10,623 nt of DNA from Actinomycetota bacterium (GTDB taxonomy: Bacteria > Actinomycetota > Thermoleophilia > UBA2241): positions 1 through 10,623 of the forward strand of contig PMKX01000086.1 of assembly GCA_003158705.1 (NCBI GenBank), written 5' to 3'. A model generated the notes under the pieces. The model made no database searches and had not been told where the DNA came from. It worked only from the letters and a program-made list of their open reading frames with translations. Below, one piece after another: positions 240 through 5,685 of this stretch (position 1 is its first letter; each line of letters starts with the position of its first letter). The translations under genes and the position numbers were made by a program.

Positions 240-274
240 CAAGAGAGGCTTGGGCTTTAGCACTACCTCTCTTG
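240..274 (-). promoter_or_regulatory. Perfect 9-bp hairpin in the pilin mRNA leader (putative expression platform)
   Basis: On the minus strand CAAGAGAGG (274-266) and CCTCTCTTG (248-240) are perfect complements separated by a 17-nt loop. No U-tract follows the stem, so it is not a classical intrinsic terminator. The 3' arm (CCUCUC) can alternatively pair with GAGAGG in the pilin ribosome binding site at 208-203, which would allow a fold where the site is either free or masked. The position just after the riboswitch and anti-aptamer strand supports a regulatory role; the mechanism is inferred. Confidence 0.55.
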
Positions 275-277
275 CGC

Positions 278-287
278 GGCAAACCAC
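278..287 (-). promoter_or_regulatory. Anti-aptamer strand, perfect 10-nt complement of the riboswitch 5' arm
   Basis: GTGGTTTGCC on the minus strand (287-278) is the exact reverse complement of GGCAAACCAC (372-363), which forms the 5' side of aptamer helix P1, the joining strand and the start of P2. Pairing of the two would dismantle the ligand-binding fold, so this looks like the switching strand of the riboswitch. It lies 22 nt downstream of the aptamer 3' end and directly precedes the 9-bp hairpin at 274-240. Confidence 0.6.
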
Positions 288-308
288 GAAGTGTTCCGAA
301 CCTCCGCG

Positions 309-380
309 GCGGCAGCCCAGCCGGCTCCGCGAGCCCTGTGGCTTTGCGCCCCACCCTCGCGAGTGGTTTGCCTTTGACGC
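309..380 (-). ncRNA. Cyclic di-GMP-I (GEMM-I) riboswitch aptamer in the pilin gene leader
   Basis: Read on the minus strand, the segment shows the GEMM-I core in order. CAAAGGCAAACC ends at 365. P2 is a 6-bp stem (366-361 with 356-351, one G-U pair) capped by a GCGA (GNRA) tetraloop at 360-357. Then come GCGCAAAGCC (350-341), a short P3 hairpin (GGCTC, GCG loop, GAGCC) and GGCTGGGCTGCC closing P1 near 311. By alignment to the Vibrio Vc2 aptamer, G20 corresponds to G at 371, A47 to A at 344 and C92 to C at 312. The G at position 20 favours c-di-GMP over the cGAMP-selective variants, which carry A. P3 is shorter than usual and lacks an obvious canonical tetraloop receptor. Such riboswitches commonly precede pilin, chemotaxis and secretion genes; here the next gene downstream is the pilin/GspG gene at 189. 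Confidence 0.88.
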
Positions 381-590
381 CTTCACTACTACTCTGCCCA
401 ACCGCGCCTTCGCCAGACGCACGATCATTCGGCAGGACCCCGCCTCCGCTTTAGCCGTCAGCAGCCGCCAGGGCGGCGCACAGGCTCAGAAACGCAGCGG
501 CAAGCATGCGTATGTGCCTGTGGATCCCCTAACGCCGGGCCTTCCCCTGGTACATATGTCTATGCCGAGGTGGACGGTGCAGAAAGCGTG
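381..590. other. Non-coding stretch between the sigma factor gene and the riboswitch
   Basis: No convincing gene is present between the sigma factor stop codon and the aptamer. The stretch holds the possible promoter at 453-426, a GC-rich palindrome at 464-477 whose loop is too small to be a clear hairpin, and a palindromic ACATATGT near 553-560. No U-tract terminator was seen after the sigma gene, so read-through from the assembly operon into the riboswitch leader remains possible. Confidence 0.5.
426..453 (-). promoter_or_regulatory. Possible sigma-28/WhiG-class promoter for the riboswitch-pilin transcript
   Basis: On the minus strand TAAA (453-450) and GCCGAATG (433-426) are separated by 16 nt. 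This resembles the TAAA-N15/16-GCCGATAA pattern of FliA/WhiG-type sigma factors, with the first five -10 bases matching. Transcription would start near 420, about 40 nt before the aptamer. A group 3 sigma factor is encoded immediately upstream, which makes the match worth noting. However, that protein looks closer to SigB/SigF, whose sites are usually GTTT-N15-GGGTA, so the assignment is tentative. Confidence 0.35.
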
Positions 591-1334
591 CTAGAAGACC
601 TTGCGACCCATGAGCTGCCTAAGACGCGTGAGCGCCTTGATGGACTCGCGCGAGACCTTCTTCTGCGTGAGGCCGAGCTCGGTGGCCACCTCGTGCTGAG
701 TCAGGTCCTTGAAGAACAGCAGGTAGATGAGACGGCGCTGGAACTTGGTGAGTTTGTCGAGGGCGTTGTAGAGGGTGATGCGGTCCTCGACCGGCAGCAC
801 GAAGGACTCGGAGCGCAACGCGTGTACCTGAGACCGGTCCGCCGCCGCCGAGGCCAGCTCCTCACTCGTAAAGGGCTCATTCTGACTATGCAGGTCGATA
901 CGCGAGTAGAGGTTGGTCACCTCGAGGATGCCCTCCTCGTTGATGTTGAGAGTCTCGGCAAGCTCGTGCAGGGTGGGCGGACGGTCGAGCTTGTGTGTGA
1001 GCTCGTTGGAGACCTCGAAGATGCGCGCGTACACGCGCTTGACCCAGCGGGGCTGGCGCATGAGCAGCGTGTCACGCAGATGGTGGCGCAGCTCTCCGTC
1101 CACGATGGCCGTGGCATAGGTGGAGAAGCGCACACCCTTCGCTGGGTCAAAGCGCTGCGCCGCTTTGATGAGCCCGAGGTTGGCCACCTGAAGCAGATCC
1201 TCGTAGGTCTCTTGCGCGTAGCTGAAGCGCTTCAGCGTGTGATGCAGAAGACCCTGGTTAGCGCGTACCACCTGCTCGAGGGCGGCTGGTGAACCGGTCT
1301 TGTGGTACGCCGCCAGAAGCTGCTCGTTGGTCAC
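591..1334 (-). CDS. RNA polymerase group 3 sigma factor (SigB/SigF/WhiG-like) in the pilus operon
   Basis: This 247-residue sigma-70 family protein lacks region 1.1 and has regions 2, 3 and 4. Region 2 spans about 18-92, with EDLLQVANLGLIKA (2.2, core binding) and the 2.3/2.4 segment at 61-88 that includes GVRFSTYA and GELRHHLRD. Region 3 is about 93-150. Region 4 is about 183-245, with the helix-turn-helix LTQHEVATELGLTQKKVSRE (211-230). The 2.4 part, reading I-x-GE-x-R-x-x-LRD followed by Q/P-R-x-V-K, is typical of SigB/SigF-like stress and sporulation factors; FliA/WhiG is the alternative. The start is GTG at 1334, 15 nt after the pilC stop. No strong Shine-Dalgarno is seen, so translation may be coupled to pilC. 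The gene end is followed by the riboswitch-pilin leader, so a natural inference is that it directs transcription of pilin or other surface genes. No anti-sigma gene is visible in the window. Confidence 0.9.
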   Translation of the reverse strand: MTNEQLLAAYHKTGSPAALEQVVRANQGLLHHTLKRFSYAQETYEDLLQVANLGLIKAAQRFDPAKGVRFSTYATAIVDGELRHHLRDTLLMRQPRWVKRVYARIFEVSNELTHKLDRPPTLHELAETLNINEEGILEVTNLYSRIDLHSQNEPFTSEELASAAADRSQVHALRSESFVLPVEDRITLYNALDKLTKFQRRLIYLLFFKDLTQHEVATELGLTQKKVSRESIKALTRLRQLMGRKVF

Positions 1335-1349: not shown

Positions 1350-2567
1350 TCACGACTTGACGATGTTCATCATGTTGAAGATCGGCAGGTACATCGAGAT
1401 GACCACGAGGCCCACGATGCCACCCACGCCTACCATCATGACGGGTTCGATGATCGAGGTGAGGGCCTTGATGCTGGCATTCACCTCGTCCTCGTAGAAA
1501 TCGGCGATCTTGTGCAGCATCGTGTCGAGCGAACCCGTCTCTTCGCCCACGGAGATCATCTGCGTGACCATCGCCGGGAAGACGCGGATGCTCTCGAGAG
1601 GCCGCGTGATCGACTGCCCCTCCTTGATGCTCTGCTGTACGTTGACCATGGCCTTCTCGATGACCGTGTTGCCGGCGGCCTGGCCGGTTATGTCGATGGC
1701 CTGCAGGATAGGCACACCGGAGGTGACCAGGGTGCCGAGGGTGCGCGAGAAGCGAGCCACGGCAAGCTTGGCCACGATGTCCCCGAACACGGGCATGGAC
1801 AGCTTGGTCCTGTCCCACGCTTCCGTGCCTCGAGACGTGTGCTTGAGACGGCGCAGTCCCCAGATGAGCAACACGATGGCGGGGATGGCTATGAACCAGT
1901 AGCTGCGCAAGCCGCCGGACACGCCCATCATGATGCGCGTGAGCAGCGGGAGCTTGGCGTTGCCGAGGTCCTTGTACATCTTGGCGAAGATAGGGATGAG
2001 GATCATGACCATGCCGACGAGCACCAGGATCGCGAAGCTGGCGATCATGATCGGGTACACCATCGCCGACTTCACGGCCCGCTTGATGCTGTCGTCCCTC
2101 TCGAGCTGGTTGGCCAGCCGGTTGAGCACGTCGTCGAGGATACCGCCGATCTCCCCGGCGCGGACCATGCTCACGTAGAGGCGGCTGAAGACTCTGGGGT
2201 GCTTCTCCAGAGCGTCCGACAGACTGATGCCGGCCTCGACGTCCTCCTTCAGCTGGGCGATGACTTTGCCAAGCTTCTTGTTGGGGGTCTGCTCCTCGAG
2301 CACGTACAGGCAGCGCAGCATCGAGAGCCCCGAGTTCACCATGGTGGCGAACTGGCGCGAGAAGACAGTGAGGTCCCTGGCCTTGATGGTCTGGAACGGC
2401 TCCAGGATGTCGATCTGGCCCAGTCCCCGCTTGACCTCGTCGAGGTCGAGAACGGTCAGACCACGGCTGCGCAGCGCAGCGGCGGCCACCACCTTGCTGT
2501 CACCATCGACCTGGCCGGTCGCCGGTGTGCCTTTCGCATCCATTACTTTGTAGGCGAACGTAGCCAT
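1350..2567 (-). CDS. pilC: Type IV pilus assembly platform protein PilC (GspF family)
   Basis: This 405-residue polytopic inner-membrane protein acts as the platform on which PilB and PilT work to insert or withdraw pilin subunits. It contains two T2SSF repeats, about residues 63-186 and 269-391. Each carries the family signature near its end: GEIGGILDDVL (138-148) and GEETGSLDTML (341-351). Membrane segments are predicted near 172-195, 221-239 and 371-395, the last with the hallmark EPVMMVGVGGIVG region ending in YLPIF. The length is normal for the family. ATG 2567 was chosen over an upstream in-frame start at 2618 because it follows GGAGG (2576-2572, spacing 4 nt), gives the usual N-terminus (MATFAYKVMDAKG), and the longer version would run through a stem-loop. 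The gene follows pilT after a 103-bp gap and precedes the sigma factor gene by 15 bp. Confidence 0.95.
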   Translation of the reverse strand: MATFAYKVMDAKGTPATGQVDGDSKVVAAAALRSRGLTVLDLDEVKRGLGQIDILEPFQTIKARDLTVFSRQFATMVNSGLSMLRCLYVLEEQTPNKKLGKVIAQLKEDVEAGISLSDALEKHPRVFSRLYVSMVRAGEIGGILDDVLNRLANQLERDDSIKRAVKSAMVYPIMIASFAILVLVGMVMILIPIFAKMYKDLGNAKLPLLTRIMMGVSGGLRSYWFIAIPAIVLLIWGLRRLKHTSRGTEAWDRTKLSMPVFGDIVAKLAVARFSRTLGTLVTSGVPILQAIDITGQAAGNTVIEKAMVNVQQSIKEGQSITRPLESIRVFPAMVTQMISVGEETGSLDTMLHKIADFYEDEVNASIKALTSIIEPVMMVGVGGIVGLVVISMYLPIFNMMNIVKS

Positions 2568-2670: not shown

Positions 2671-3750
<1,080 letters not shown>

Positions 3751-3780: not shown

Positions 3781-5685
3781 CTAGACGATGACCCGCGCGA
3801 TCTCCTCCATCGAGGTCATGCCTTGCAGGACTTTTTCCAGACCATCCTCACGCAACGTCCTCATGCCCTCGGCAGTGGCCACACGCGAGACTTCGTCGGC
3901 ACTCTTGCGCTCGACGATGAGTCTGCGGATCGCTTCGCTGACCACCATCACCTCGTAGATCCCGAGACGCCCCTTGTAGCCGGTGTTGTTGCAGCGTGAG
4001 CAGCCGCGGGCGCGGTAGAGGGTGACGTCGCCGGAAAGTTCTTTCGACGGGAAGCCATTGAGGCGCAGCACCTCGTGCGTGGGCTTGAAGGGCTCGCGGC
4101 ACTCGTGACACAGCCGACGAGCCAGCCTCTGGGCGAGCACGCAATCGACCGCCGACGAGGTGAGGAACGGCTCGACGCCCATCTCGGTAAGGCGCGACAG
4201 GGCGCCAGGAGCGTCGTTGGTGTGCATGCTGCTCAGCACGAGGTGGCCGGTGAGCGCGGACTCGATCGCGATCTGCGCCGTCTCGCGGTCGCGGATCTCG
4301 CCGATCATGATGATGTCGGGGTCACAGCGCAGGATGGTGCGTAGTCCGGAGGCGAATGTGAGCCCGGCCTTGTTGTTCACCTGTACCTGATTGACGCCGG
4401 CCAGACGGTACTCGACCGGGTCCTCGACTGTGATCACGTTCTTCTCGGGCGAGTTGAGCAAGCTGAGCACTGCGTAGAGCGTCGTGGACTTGCCGGAGCC
4501 GGTCGGGCCCGTGGCCAGAATTGTGCCGTACGGCTTGGTGAACGACCGCTGGAAGCGCTTCAGCGCTTGCTCGGAGAAGCCGAGCTCCAACAGATCGAGC
4601 ACTACGGTGGACTTGTCGAGCAGCCGCATGGCGATCTTCTCTCCGTACACCGTGGGCAGCGTGGCCACACGCACATCGACCGGTTTGCCGCCCACGACCA
4701 GACCGAGCCGGCCGTCCTGCGGCACACGGCGCTCGGCTATGTCGAGGCTCGACATGATCTTGAGCCGCGAGAGGATGCCCGACTGCATGCGGTGCGGCAC
4801 CGACATGATCTCGTGCAGCACACCGTCGATACGGAAGCGCACCAGGAGCTCCTTGGCCTGCGGCTCGAAGTGAATGTCGCTGGCGCCGTCCTCGACGGCC
4901 TGCGCCAGCACCGAGTTGACGAGCTTGATGACCGGCGCCTCGTTGACCGTCTCACGTATGTCCGAGTCCTCTTCGGGTTCTGGCCCAGAGGTGTGGGCGA
5001 ACTCACGGCCGACCGACTCCTCGCGGTTGAGACGAGCGATGGTGCCGAACACGTCTTTGGCGCTGGCTATGGCGGGCTGTATGTCGTAGCCCGTCATGAT
5101 GCGCAGATCGTCGATGGCAAAGACGTTGCTCGGGTCGACCATGGCCACCAGCAGGACCTGGTCGTCGAGGAACTTGACCGGGACGGCGCCGTAGCGGCGA
5201 GCCAGCCTGTCGGGGATCACGTCGGCGACATCGGTGTCGACCGGAGTGGCGGTAAGGTCGATGAACGGCACGCCCAAGTTGCGGCCAAGCGCCTTTATCA
5301 GGTCGAGCTCGTCGATGAACCCCAGGTCGAGAAGAGCCTCACCGAGCCGCTTGCCGGTCTCCTTCTGGGTGGCCGCTGCCTGCTCTATCTGCTCGTCGCT
5401 GACGACCTTCATCTCGCGCAGGATGTCGCCGAGACGCAGCTTGGAGCGCCGTCCGGGCCGGAACGAGTCCTCGACGGAGAAGCCGCTCTGGGGATCCGGC
5501 ACGACGACGGCGGGCTCAGCCTCGTCGCTCGCCAGGCTGACGATCACCATGTTCTCGGCAGGCTCCAACTCGTCCCTTTCTGGCCCCGGCTTGACTCTCG
5601 TCGCGCTCTCGTCGCTCGCGGCAGTGCCGACGGTCTCGTCGCCCGTCAGCCGCGAATCAACGTCCTCTGTGTCCTGTGACTGCAC
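3781..5685 (-). CDS. pilB: Type IV pilus extension ATPase PilB (GspE family) with MshEN-type N-domain
   Basis: This 634-residue cytoplasmic ATPase powers pilin polymerisation. It is longer than usual PilB (about 560-580) because of an acidic, low-complexity N-terminus (1-80). Residues 83-220 are an MshEN/T2SSE_N domain with two RLG-type motifs (R84-L-G and R113-L-G). This fold binds c-di-GMP in MshE, but the first copy has K93 where Gly is usual and the second has N136 where Gln is usual. The core carries Walker A GPTGSGKST (393-401), Asp box ITVEDPVEY, Walker B DPDIIMIGEIRD (455-466), His box LTGHLVLSSMHTNDA and a zinc tetracysteine (C526, C529, C562, C565) typical of PilB/GspE. The start is GTG 5685: GGAAG stands 9 nt upstream and an in-frame TGA at 5692-5694 excludes a longer protein. 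It overlaps the aroE 3' end by 29 bp, implying co-transcription. Confidence 0.95.
   Translation of the reverse strand: MQSQDTEDVDSRLTGDETVGTAASDESATRVKPGPERDELEPAENMVIVSLASDEAEPAVVVPDPQSGFSVEDSFRPGRRSKLRLGDILREMKVVSDEQIEQAAATQKETGKRLGEALLDLGFIDELDLIKALGRNLGVPFIDLTATPVDTDVADVIPDRLARRYGAVPVKFLDDQVLLVAMVDPSNVFAIDDLRIMTGYDIQPAIASAKDVFGTIARLNREESVGREFAHTSGPEPEEDSDIRETVNEAPVIKLVNSVLAQAVEDGASDIHFEPQAKELLVRFRIDGVLHEIMSVPHRMQSGILSRLKIMSSLDIAERRVPQDGRLGLVVGGKPVDVRVATLPTVYGEKIAMRLLDKSTVVLDLLELGFSEQALKRFQRSFTKPYGTILATGPTGSGKSTTLYAVLSLLNSPEKNVITVEDPVEYRLAGVNQVQVNNKAGLTFASGLRTILRCDPDIIMIGEIRDRETAQIAIESALTGHLVLSSMHTNDAPGALSRLTEMGVEPFLTSSAVDCVLAQRLARRLCHECREPFKPTHEVLRLNGFPSKELSGDVTLYRARGCSRCNNTGYKGRLGIYEVMVVSEAIRRLIVERKSADEVSRVATAEGMRTLREDGLEKVLQGMTSMEEIARVIV

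Follow-up and report, generated by a model that had tools for sequence, protein, structure and literature searches.

Does the second messenger c-di-GMP control pilin synthesis in deep Actinomycetota, and does it raise or lower it? The question is posed by the window, a stretch of 10,623 nucleotides from an Actinomycetota bacterium (Thermoleophilia, UBA2241; contig PMKX01000086.1), whose minus strand carries a type IV pilus (T4P) locus in the order pilB-pilT-pilC-sigma-riboswitch-pilin, which is common to relatives (Table 1). The preliminary description had placed a c-di-GMP-I riboswitch in a T4P locus about 120 nt before a pilin start, and this holds: the pilB, pilT, pilC and sigma factor genes precede the aptamer, the pilin gene follows it, and the distance from the aptamer to the pilin ATG was computed as 117 nt; the direct control of this gene that was also stated there is a prediction. 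The designation of the gene as pilin/GspG-like agrees with its N-methylation motif; GspG, however, is the best NCBIfam model with a score far below its cut-off. Mis-binning of the contig is unlikely, as PilB is 73% identical to that of G004, a genome of the same family, and the gene order is equal. The window contig and contig C140 of G004 both stop within the first pilin, as if the assembly were broken by a repeat, and tandem riboswitch-pilin units about 800 bp apart are found at L032 (G008:C14) and L033 (G010:C159).

Table 1. Features of the window, all on the minus strand; positions are those of the whole stretch.
Feature	Position	Strand	Remark
c-di-GMP-I aptamer	307..381	-	Rfam covariance models
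Aptamer P1	381-378/311-308	-	
Aptamer P2, 6 bp	366-361/356-351	-	GCGA loop 360-357
Aptamer P3	343-314	-	by eye on RF03167 alignment
Ligand-binding strand GGCAAACCAC	372-363	-	
Aptamer piece GGCAAACC	372-365	-	
Aptamer piece GCGCAAAGCC	349-340	-	
Aptamer piece GGGCUGCC	318-311	-	
Anti-core GUGGUUUGCC	278..287	-	10/10 Watson-Crick complement of GGCAAACCAC 372-363
Hairpin CAAGAGAGG/CCUCUCUUG, 9 bp	274-266/248-240 (240..274)	-	no U-tract after
Pilin SD AGGAG and ATG	205-201; 189-187	-	
Pilin gene, first 63 codons	1..189	-	contig ends; PF07963 42.5 bits
Promoter-like box GTCT-N15-GGGCANNNTA	390..418	-	8 nt upstream of aptamer
Possible second box, sigma-28-like	428..453	-	TAAA 453-450, GCCGAA 433-428; weak, by eye
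SigB/SigF/SigG-like sigma factor gene	591..1334	-	directly upstream of riboswitch
pilC	1350..2567	-	
pilT-like ATPase gene	2671..3750	-	
pilB with MshEN domain	3781..5685	-	PF05157

The sensor itself was recognized by two Rfam covariance models. The minus strand from 381 to 307 matches c-di-GMP-I (RF01051) with 58.4 bits against a gathering cut-off of 35, which confirms the class I assignment, and the best-scoring model is c-di-GMP-I-GGC (RF03167; 62.0 bits, cut-off 59, E 5e-13); for both models together, the host genome (a 1.93-Mb draft, 74% complete) holds this one copy only. All GEMM-I pieces named in the preliminary description (GGCAAACC, P2 with its GCGA loop, GCGCAAAGCC and GGGCUGCC) were found on the minus strand. 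P3 had been called unusually short, a claim that was dropped because a reading by eye allows it 12 pairs, interrupted by an A bulge and a GG bulge and closed by a loop of 3 nt. The helices also covary in an alignment of 22 leaders from pilin-type relatives (20 seen with a pilin gene, whereas L068 and L081 end before it): changes on both sides occur at six of the 14 pairs of P3, one of four in P1 and one of six in P2, with P1 paired in only 83%. By its sequence, the segment is an ordinary and canonical aptamer of the known c-di-GMP-I class. A survey run with stricter filters detected 78 such aptamers in 38 of 60 genomes, the host genome included, and 25 of them, among these the window's, lie upstream of a gene with a prepilin motif, a count in which the choice of reading frame favoured such motifs. 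Numerous genomes from the window's family have aptamers of 80-81 nt upstream of genes for long predicted secreted proteins with similar starts (L002, L008, L010, L011, L013-L016, L018, L020, L024 and L028).

In the Vc2 aptamer, the ligand is contacted by G20, A47 and C92, and Vc2, Vc1 and Bc1 share a spacing of 27 nt between G20 and A47 (excerpts of PMC4744006 and PMC11218506). Given this spacing, and if the first A that follows CGC is equated with A47, G372 and A345 are the predicted equivalents of G20 and A47. The preliminary description had rightly read a G at this place as favouring c-di-GMP over cGAMP, but had put it at 371, which is the next G. C312 presumably corresponds to C92, according to an alignment to Vc2. 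We infer from these contacts that c-di-GMP is the ligand of the 381-307 aptamer. Position 20 could be parsed in 67 of the 78 aptamers (11 unparsed) and is a G in 64 and an A in three, namely L049 (G001:C42), L027 and L064. L049 is a pilB-pilT-pilC-sigma locus that matches that of the window and belongs to G001, a genome of the same family; as A at position 20 is a mark of cGAMP, the ligand may differ among close relatives. Apart from L049, the fact that some GEMM-I aptamers sense cGAMP (excerpts of PMC7266159) speaks for this ligand; the G at position 20 of the window (372) and in nearly all parsed aptamers, however, makes cGAMP a highly improbable ligand here. Barely plausible is an altered ligand of the GGC type, even though RF03167 is the best Rfam match, 3 bits above its cut-off, and was also the best model in four of five anti-core leaders of relatives that were scanned (RF01051 in the fifth). 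The printed RF03167 consensus has a G at Vc2 position 47, which we take to be the source of the family's name, and the variant probably stems from two papers by Weinberg in 2017. The window has an A at this position, as do all 78 aptamers, window included, by a regular expression; membership in the GGC variant with an altered ligand was therefore rejected, and the window, as aligned, shares the scaffold and the best bit score of RF03167 without its distinguishing base. The GNRA loop without an evident receptor, which the preliminary description had taken for a possible novel structural variant, is indeed present, but it corresponds to a subtype already published as type II of c-di-GMP-I, in which a GYRA loop has no receptor (excerpts of PMC11218506), and loops of the form G[CU][AG]A occur in 72 of the 78 aptamers, so that the unusual-variant reading was rejected. 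With type II aptamers of RF01051, the window has the P1-P2-P3 core, the three contact bases and the receptor-less GYRA loop in common, and the aptamers differ in nothing essential.

How such an ordinary sensor could be coupled to the pilin gene is suggested by the sequence downstream of it. A predicted expression platform extends from 287 to 240, outside the segment 309..380 originally described, and begins with a strand, here called the anti-core, that is able to pair with the aptamer in place of the aptamer's own fold, as judged by its complementarity to the ligand-binding strand. In 2000 dinucleotide shuffles of the window leader, a 10/10 match to the core was equalled once, and a match of this length to any stretch of the aptamer nine times. 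Among the 78 leaders, an anti-core of at least 8 Watson-Crick pairs is present in 12 of the 25 pilin leaders versus one of the 53 others (Fisher p 1.3e-6), and in 60 of 2500 shuffled pilin leaders; the sole non-pilin case is a contig-end locus directly downstream of pilT-pilC-sigma. In the remaining 13 of the 25, no anti-core of 8 pairs is present. Within the window's family, three of nine pilin leaders carry the long form (the window and two of G004); it is missing from those of G008 (two), G010 (two), G009 and G012.

A scan of named genomes with an exact pattern that required the anti-core returned 24 matches, at least four of which are on the same contigs as loci of the surveyed genomes (L099, on a G004 contig, repeats L034). 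Fourteen of them carry a label of Actinomycetota, Actinomycetes, Actinobacteria, Thermoleophilia or Gaiellales. A pilin gene follows in 13 of the 14; in the fourteenth, L081, the sequence stretch ends before any gene. The element thus occurs in metagenome-assembled genomes named as Actinomycetota, Thermoleophilia and Gaiellales, in line with the earlier guess of a deep actinobacterium. The other ten are distributed over Omnitrophota (four), Selenomonadales (two), Bacillota, Elusimicrobiota, Woeseia and Rhodocyclaceae (one each), with a pilin-like gene downstream in one, L079. A terminator-like hairpin around GGTTTGCC accompanies 22 of the 24 matches, weakly in L085 and L097, and was not found in L086 and L090. 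Terminators containing GGUUUGCC also follow c-di-GMP-I aptamers of Omnitrophota and Selenomonadales (L079, L084, L087, L094, L088 and L100), where the downstream gene has a prepilin motif in L079 only; the core-capturing terminator stands before other genes in these groups and may therefore have evolved repeatedly.

The coupling of anti-core and terminator was analysed in 25 leaders that were picked because they carry the anti-core or a close variant, with the window excluded, one pair identical and three (L049, L068 and L081) in which the contig or stretch stops before a gene. All 25 picked leaders have a hairpin with the anti-core in its 5' arm and loop, followed by a T-run of at least three. 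In the 22 aligned leaders, 99% of the cells of the terminator helix are paired and six of its ten pairs have changed on both sides, whereas pairing of the whole structure falls to 32-49% in a control with all partners slid. The whole structure exceeds all 500 shuffles, which ignore the relatedness of the rows, in four of five measures, the exception being the measure of further pair types. When the leaders were folded to the end of the U-tract, the terminator formed in 21 of the 25 with the core blocked and in 19 without constraint; the anti-core helix and the terminator are therefore mutually exclusive, and equilibrium folding alone gives no ligand dependence. As the anti-core is transcribed ahead of the 3' arm of the terminator, a kinetic switch is possible, and for an OFF switch the anti-core would have to pair first, while transcription is still under way. 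A second helix, the antiterminator, which takes part of the terminator's 3' arm, can be drawn in 25 of 25 leaders at a low threshold, but exceeds 95% of shuffles in 12 only, and the idea that every relative has an antiterminator hairpin was therefore rejected. In three full-length folds with the core blocked, the antiterminator formed and not the terminator. A further helix between the 3' flank of P1 and the 5' arm of the terminator (nine pairs in the window) is not uniform across relatives and is not claimed.

The window itself departs from this picture, because two scans (with loops of 3-8 and 3-34) found no intrinsic, U-tract terminator on the minus strand between the aptamer and the pilin gene. 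Its hairpin at 274-240 occupies the position of the antiterminator of some relatives. The switch could therefore be vestigial in this genome, with the aptamer and the anti-core kept, the terminator lost and pilin made regardless of c-di-GMP. In favour of such decay, five of the nine pilin leaders of the family lack a terminator by scan (the window, G009, two of G010 and G012), and the window folds with the anti-core helix or with the core blocked are near equal in energy (-68.8 vs -68.4 kcal/mol); however, the core, P1-P3 and all ten anti-core pairs are intact, which would be unexpected from decay alone, and we regard a vestigial switch as rather unlikely. Alternatively, control could be translational: CCUCUCUUG would pair with either the decoy strand (274-266) or the SD region CACGAGAGG (211-203), and the GGCAAA upstream of the ATG would be a partner of the anti-core. 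The SD region and the decoy are indeed direct repeats with 70% identity over 20 nt, and the SD region is 89% complementary to the 3' arm of the hairpin. Yet the decoy hairpin is paired in all computed states and the SD mostly free, with a small change of exposure between the bound (0.72) and the anti-core state (0.87), so that folding lends little support; GGCAAA precedes the ATG in only one other leader of the family (G010:4935), which lacks the anti-core. Control at the level of translation is therefore doubtful as well.

We thus somewhat favour the model of a receptor-less c-di-GMP-I riboswitch with a core-capturing platform that turns pilin OFF in response to c-di-GMP. The pilin mRNA would carry the riboswitch close to its 5' end. 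In the absence of c-di-GMP, GUGGUUUGCC would pair with GGCAAACCAC, which includes G20 together with the 5' strand of P2, thereby unfolding the sensor; in the relatives, this pairing would block the terminator, some of them would then form the antiterminator hairpin, and pilin would be made. Upon binding of c-di-GMP, GGCAAACCAC would be locked in the aptamer and the anti-core freed, so that the terminator would form and pilin transcription would end. The ligand cannot prevent the terminator but only removes its competitor; therefore, an OFF and not an ON switch is predicted. For the window, this direction is taken over from the relatives by analogy, and without a U-tract terminator the window would switch through some other output. 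The model builds on the aptamer, the anti-core and the relatives' covarying terminator that contains it, which the sequence comparisons demonstrate; the ligand, the OFF direction, the folding order and the switching of the window through another output we infer. In its favour are the Rfam matches, the invariant A47, the perfect anti-core, its enrichment before pilin genes, the covarying terminator, the 21 of 25 core-blocked folds, the ligand supply indicated by 19 GGDEF and 8 HD-GYP matches and the c-di-GMP motif of PilB. Against it stand the window's missing terminator and small SD change, the 13 of 25 pilin leaders without the anti-core and its presence in three of nine within the family, the 19 of 25 unconstrained folds, the antiterminator in 12 of 25 and the three blocked folds that form it, the measure of further pair types, which does not exceed the shuffles, the lack of EAL domains, though HD-GYP is present, and the opposite sign in Clostridioides difficile.

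Among the closest known systems is Cd1, which acts on flagellar genes of C. difficile and is, as proposed here, a class I, transcriptional OFF switch with a terminator and an antiterminator (excerpts of PMC9262584). Its target, however, is flagella, whereas here the target is pilin, with OFF as the predicted sign. The Cd1 antiterminator takes the A strand of the aptamer on the 3', P1 side, whereas in the relatives it is the 5', ligand-binding strand that the anti-core captures. The pilM riboswitch of Geobacter metallireducens is also of the GEMM-I type, transcriptional and linked to pili, but senses cGAMP and acts ON; like Cd1, it exchanges the A strand (excerpts of PMC9262584). In Bc4, the terminator is described as a rival of the C contact, of P1 and of part of P3 (excerpts of PMC4759541). 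Capture of the 5' ligand-binding strand is thus absent from the c-di-GMP-I platform descriptions compared (Cd1, pilM and Bc4), as far as the excerpts of these sources go. The T4P cluster of C. difficile is controlled by c-di-GMP as well, but through a class II, that is an unrelated, aptamer, and the class II switches of this species act ON, with one translational exception (excerpts of PMC11477304). Among the matches listed from the open-licence literature (titles and abstract starts), there was no report in which a c-di-GMP-I riboswitch governs pilin in Actinomycetota, and none of the literature matches listed dealt with pili of deep Actinomycetota as a target of c-di-GMP. The core-capturing platform and the predicted OFF sign on pilin therefore appear to be new, and the sensor itself appears ordinary.

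A start of the pilin mRNA close to the aptamer is suggested by the promoter-like box at 418-390, which resembles the consensus of SigB/SigF-type promoters. Boxes of the type GTCT-N15-GGGYA precede the aptamer in 18 of 27 pilin-type loci versus two of 51 others, counts that are descriptive only, because the expressions were composed after the sequences had been viewed. The closest models of the neighbouring sigma factor are SigB, SigF and SigG, with scores below their cut-offs. A sigma factor gene was detected in 18 of 27 loci tested for it (17 distinct), most of which also have pilC and pilT. In 15 of the 17, this gene ends 72-245 nt upstream of the aptamer, and in L066 and L076 the distance is about 1.4 kb; at the other nine loci, no match to sigma, pilC or pilT was found within the fetched stretch. 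The neighbouring sigma factor may drive the pilin promoter box. The co-occurrence of a SigB/F/G-like gene with the GTCT-N15-GGGYA box (window 591-1334, L032, L034, L054, L101 and others) raises the possibility of a sigma factor dedicated to pilin. A regulon of the box across the genome was not supported by exact matches, of which there were two, versus one for the reversed control. At most 60 nt upstream of the aptamer, 24 of the 51 non-pilin aptamers (e.g., L002, L008, L010 and L022) and four of the 27 pilin-type ones have a CCGAT-like box, which reminds us of sigma-28/WhiG promoters, and different targets of c-di-GMP riboswitches may depend on different sigma factors.

Residues 84-135 of PilB match the MshE-type c-di-GMP-binding motif (NF053729; 58.2 bits, cut-off 38), although, compared by eye, they depart at several positions from the published 24-residue consensus (excerpts of PMC5013675). 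Next to a c-di-GMP riboswitch, this motif constitutes a second possible c-di-GMP input to one pilus locus. The host genome encodes 19 GGDEF matches, some of which are two halves of one domain, and eight HD-GYP matches; no EAL domain was found in the 74% complete draft. A combined reading, in which a core-capture OFF switch lowers pilin at high c-di-GMP in deep Actinomycetota, PilB reads c-di-GMP and the SigB/F-like sigma factor drives the promoter, is put forward tentatively, as one that falls a little short of being probable.

The core-capture platform lends itself to testing and is distinct from the exchange of the 3' strand described for Cd1, pilM and Bc4. If the model is true, one messenger may act on the same machine twice, through the mRNA and through the ATPase, and c-di-GMP would repress pilin in deep Actinomycetota, opposite to its effect in C. 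difficile.
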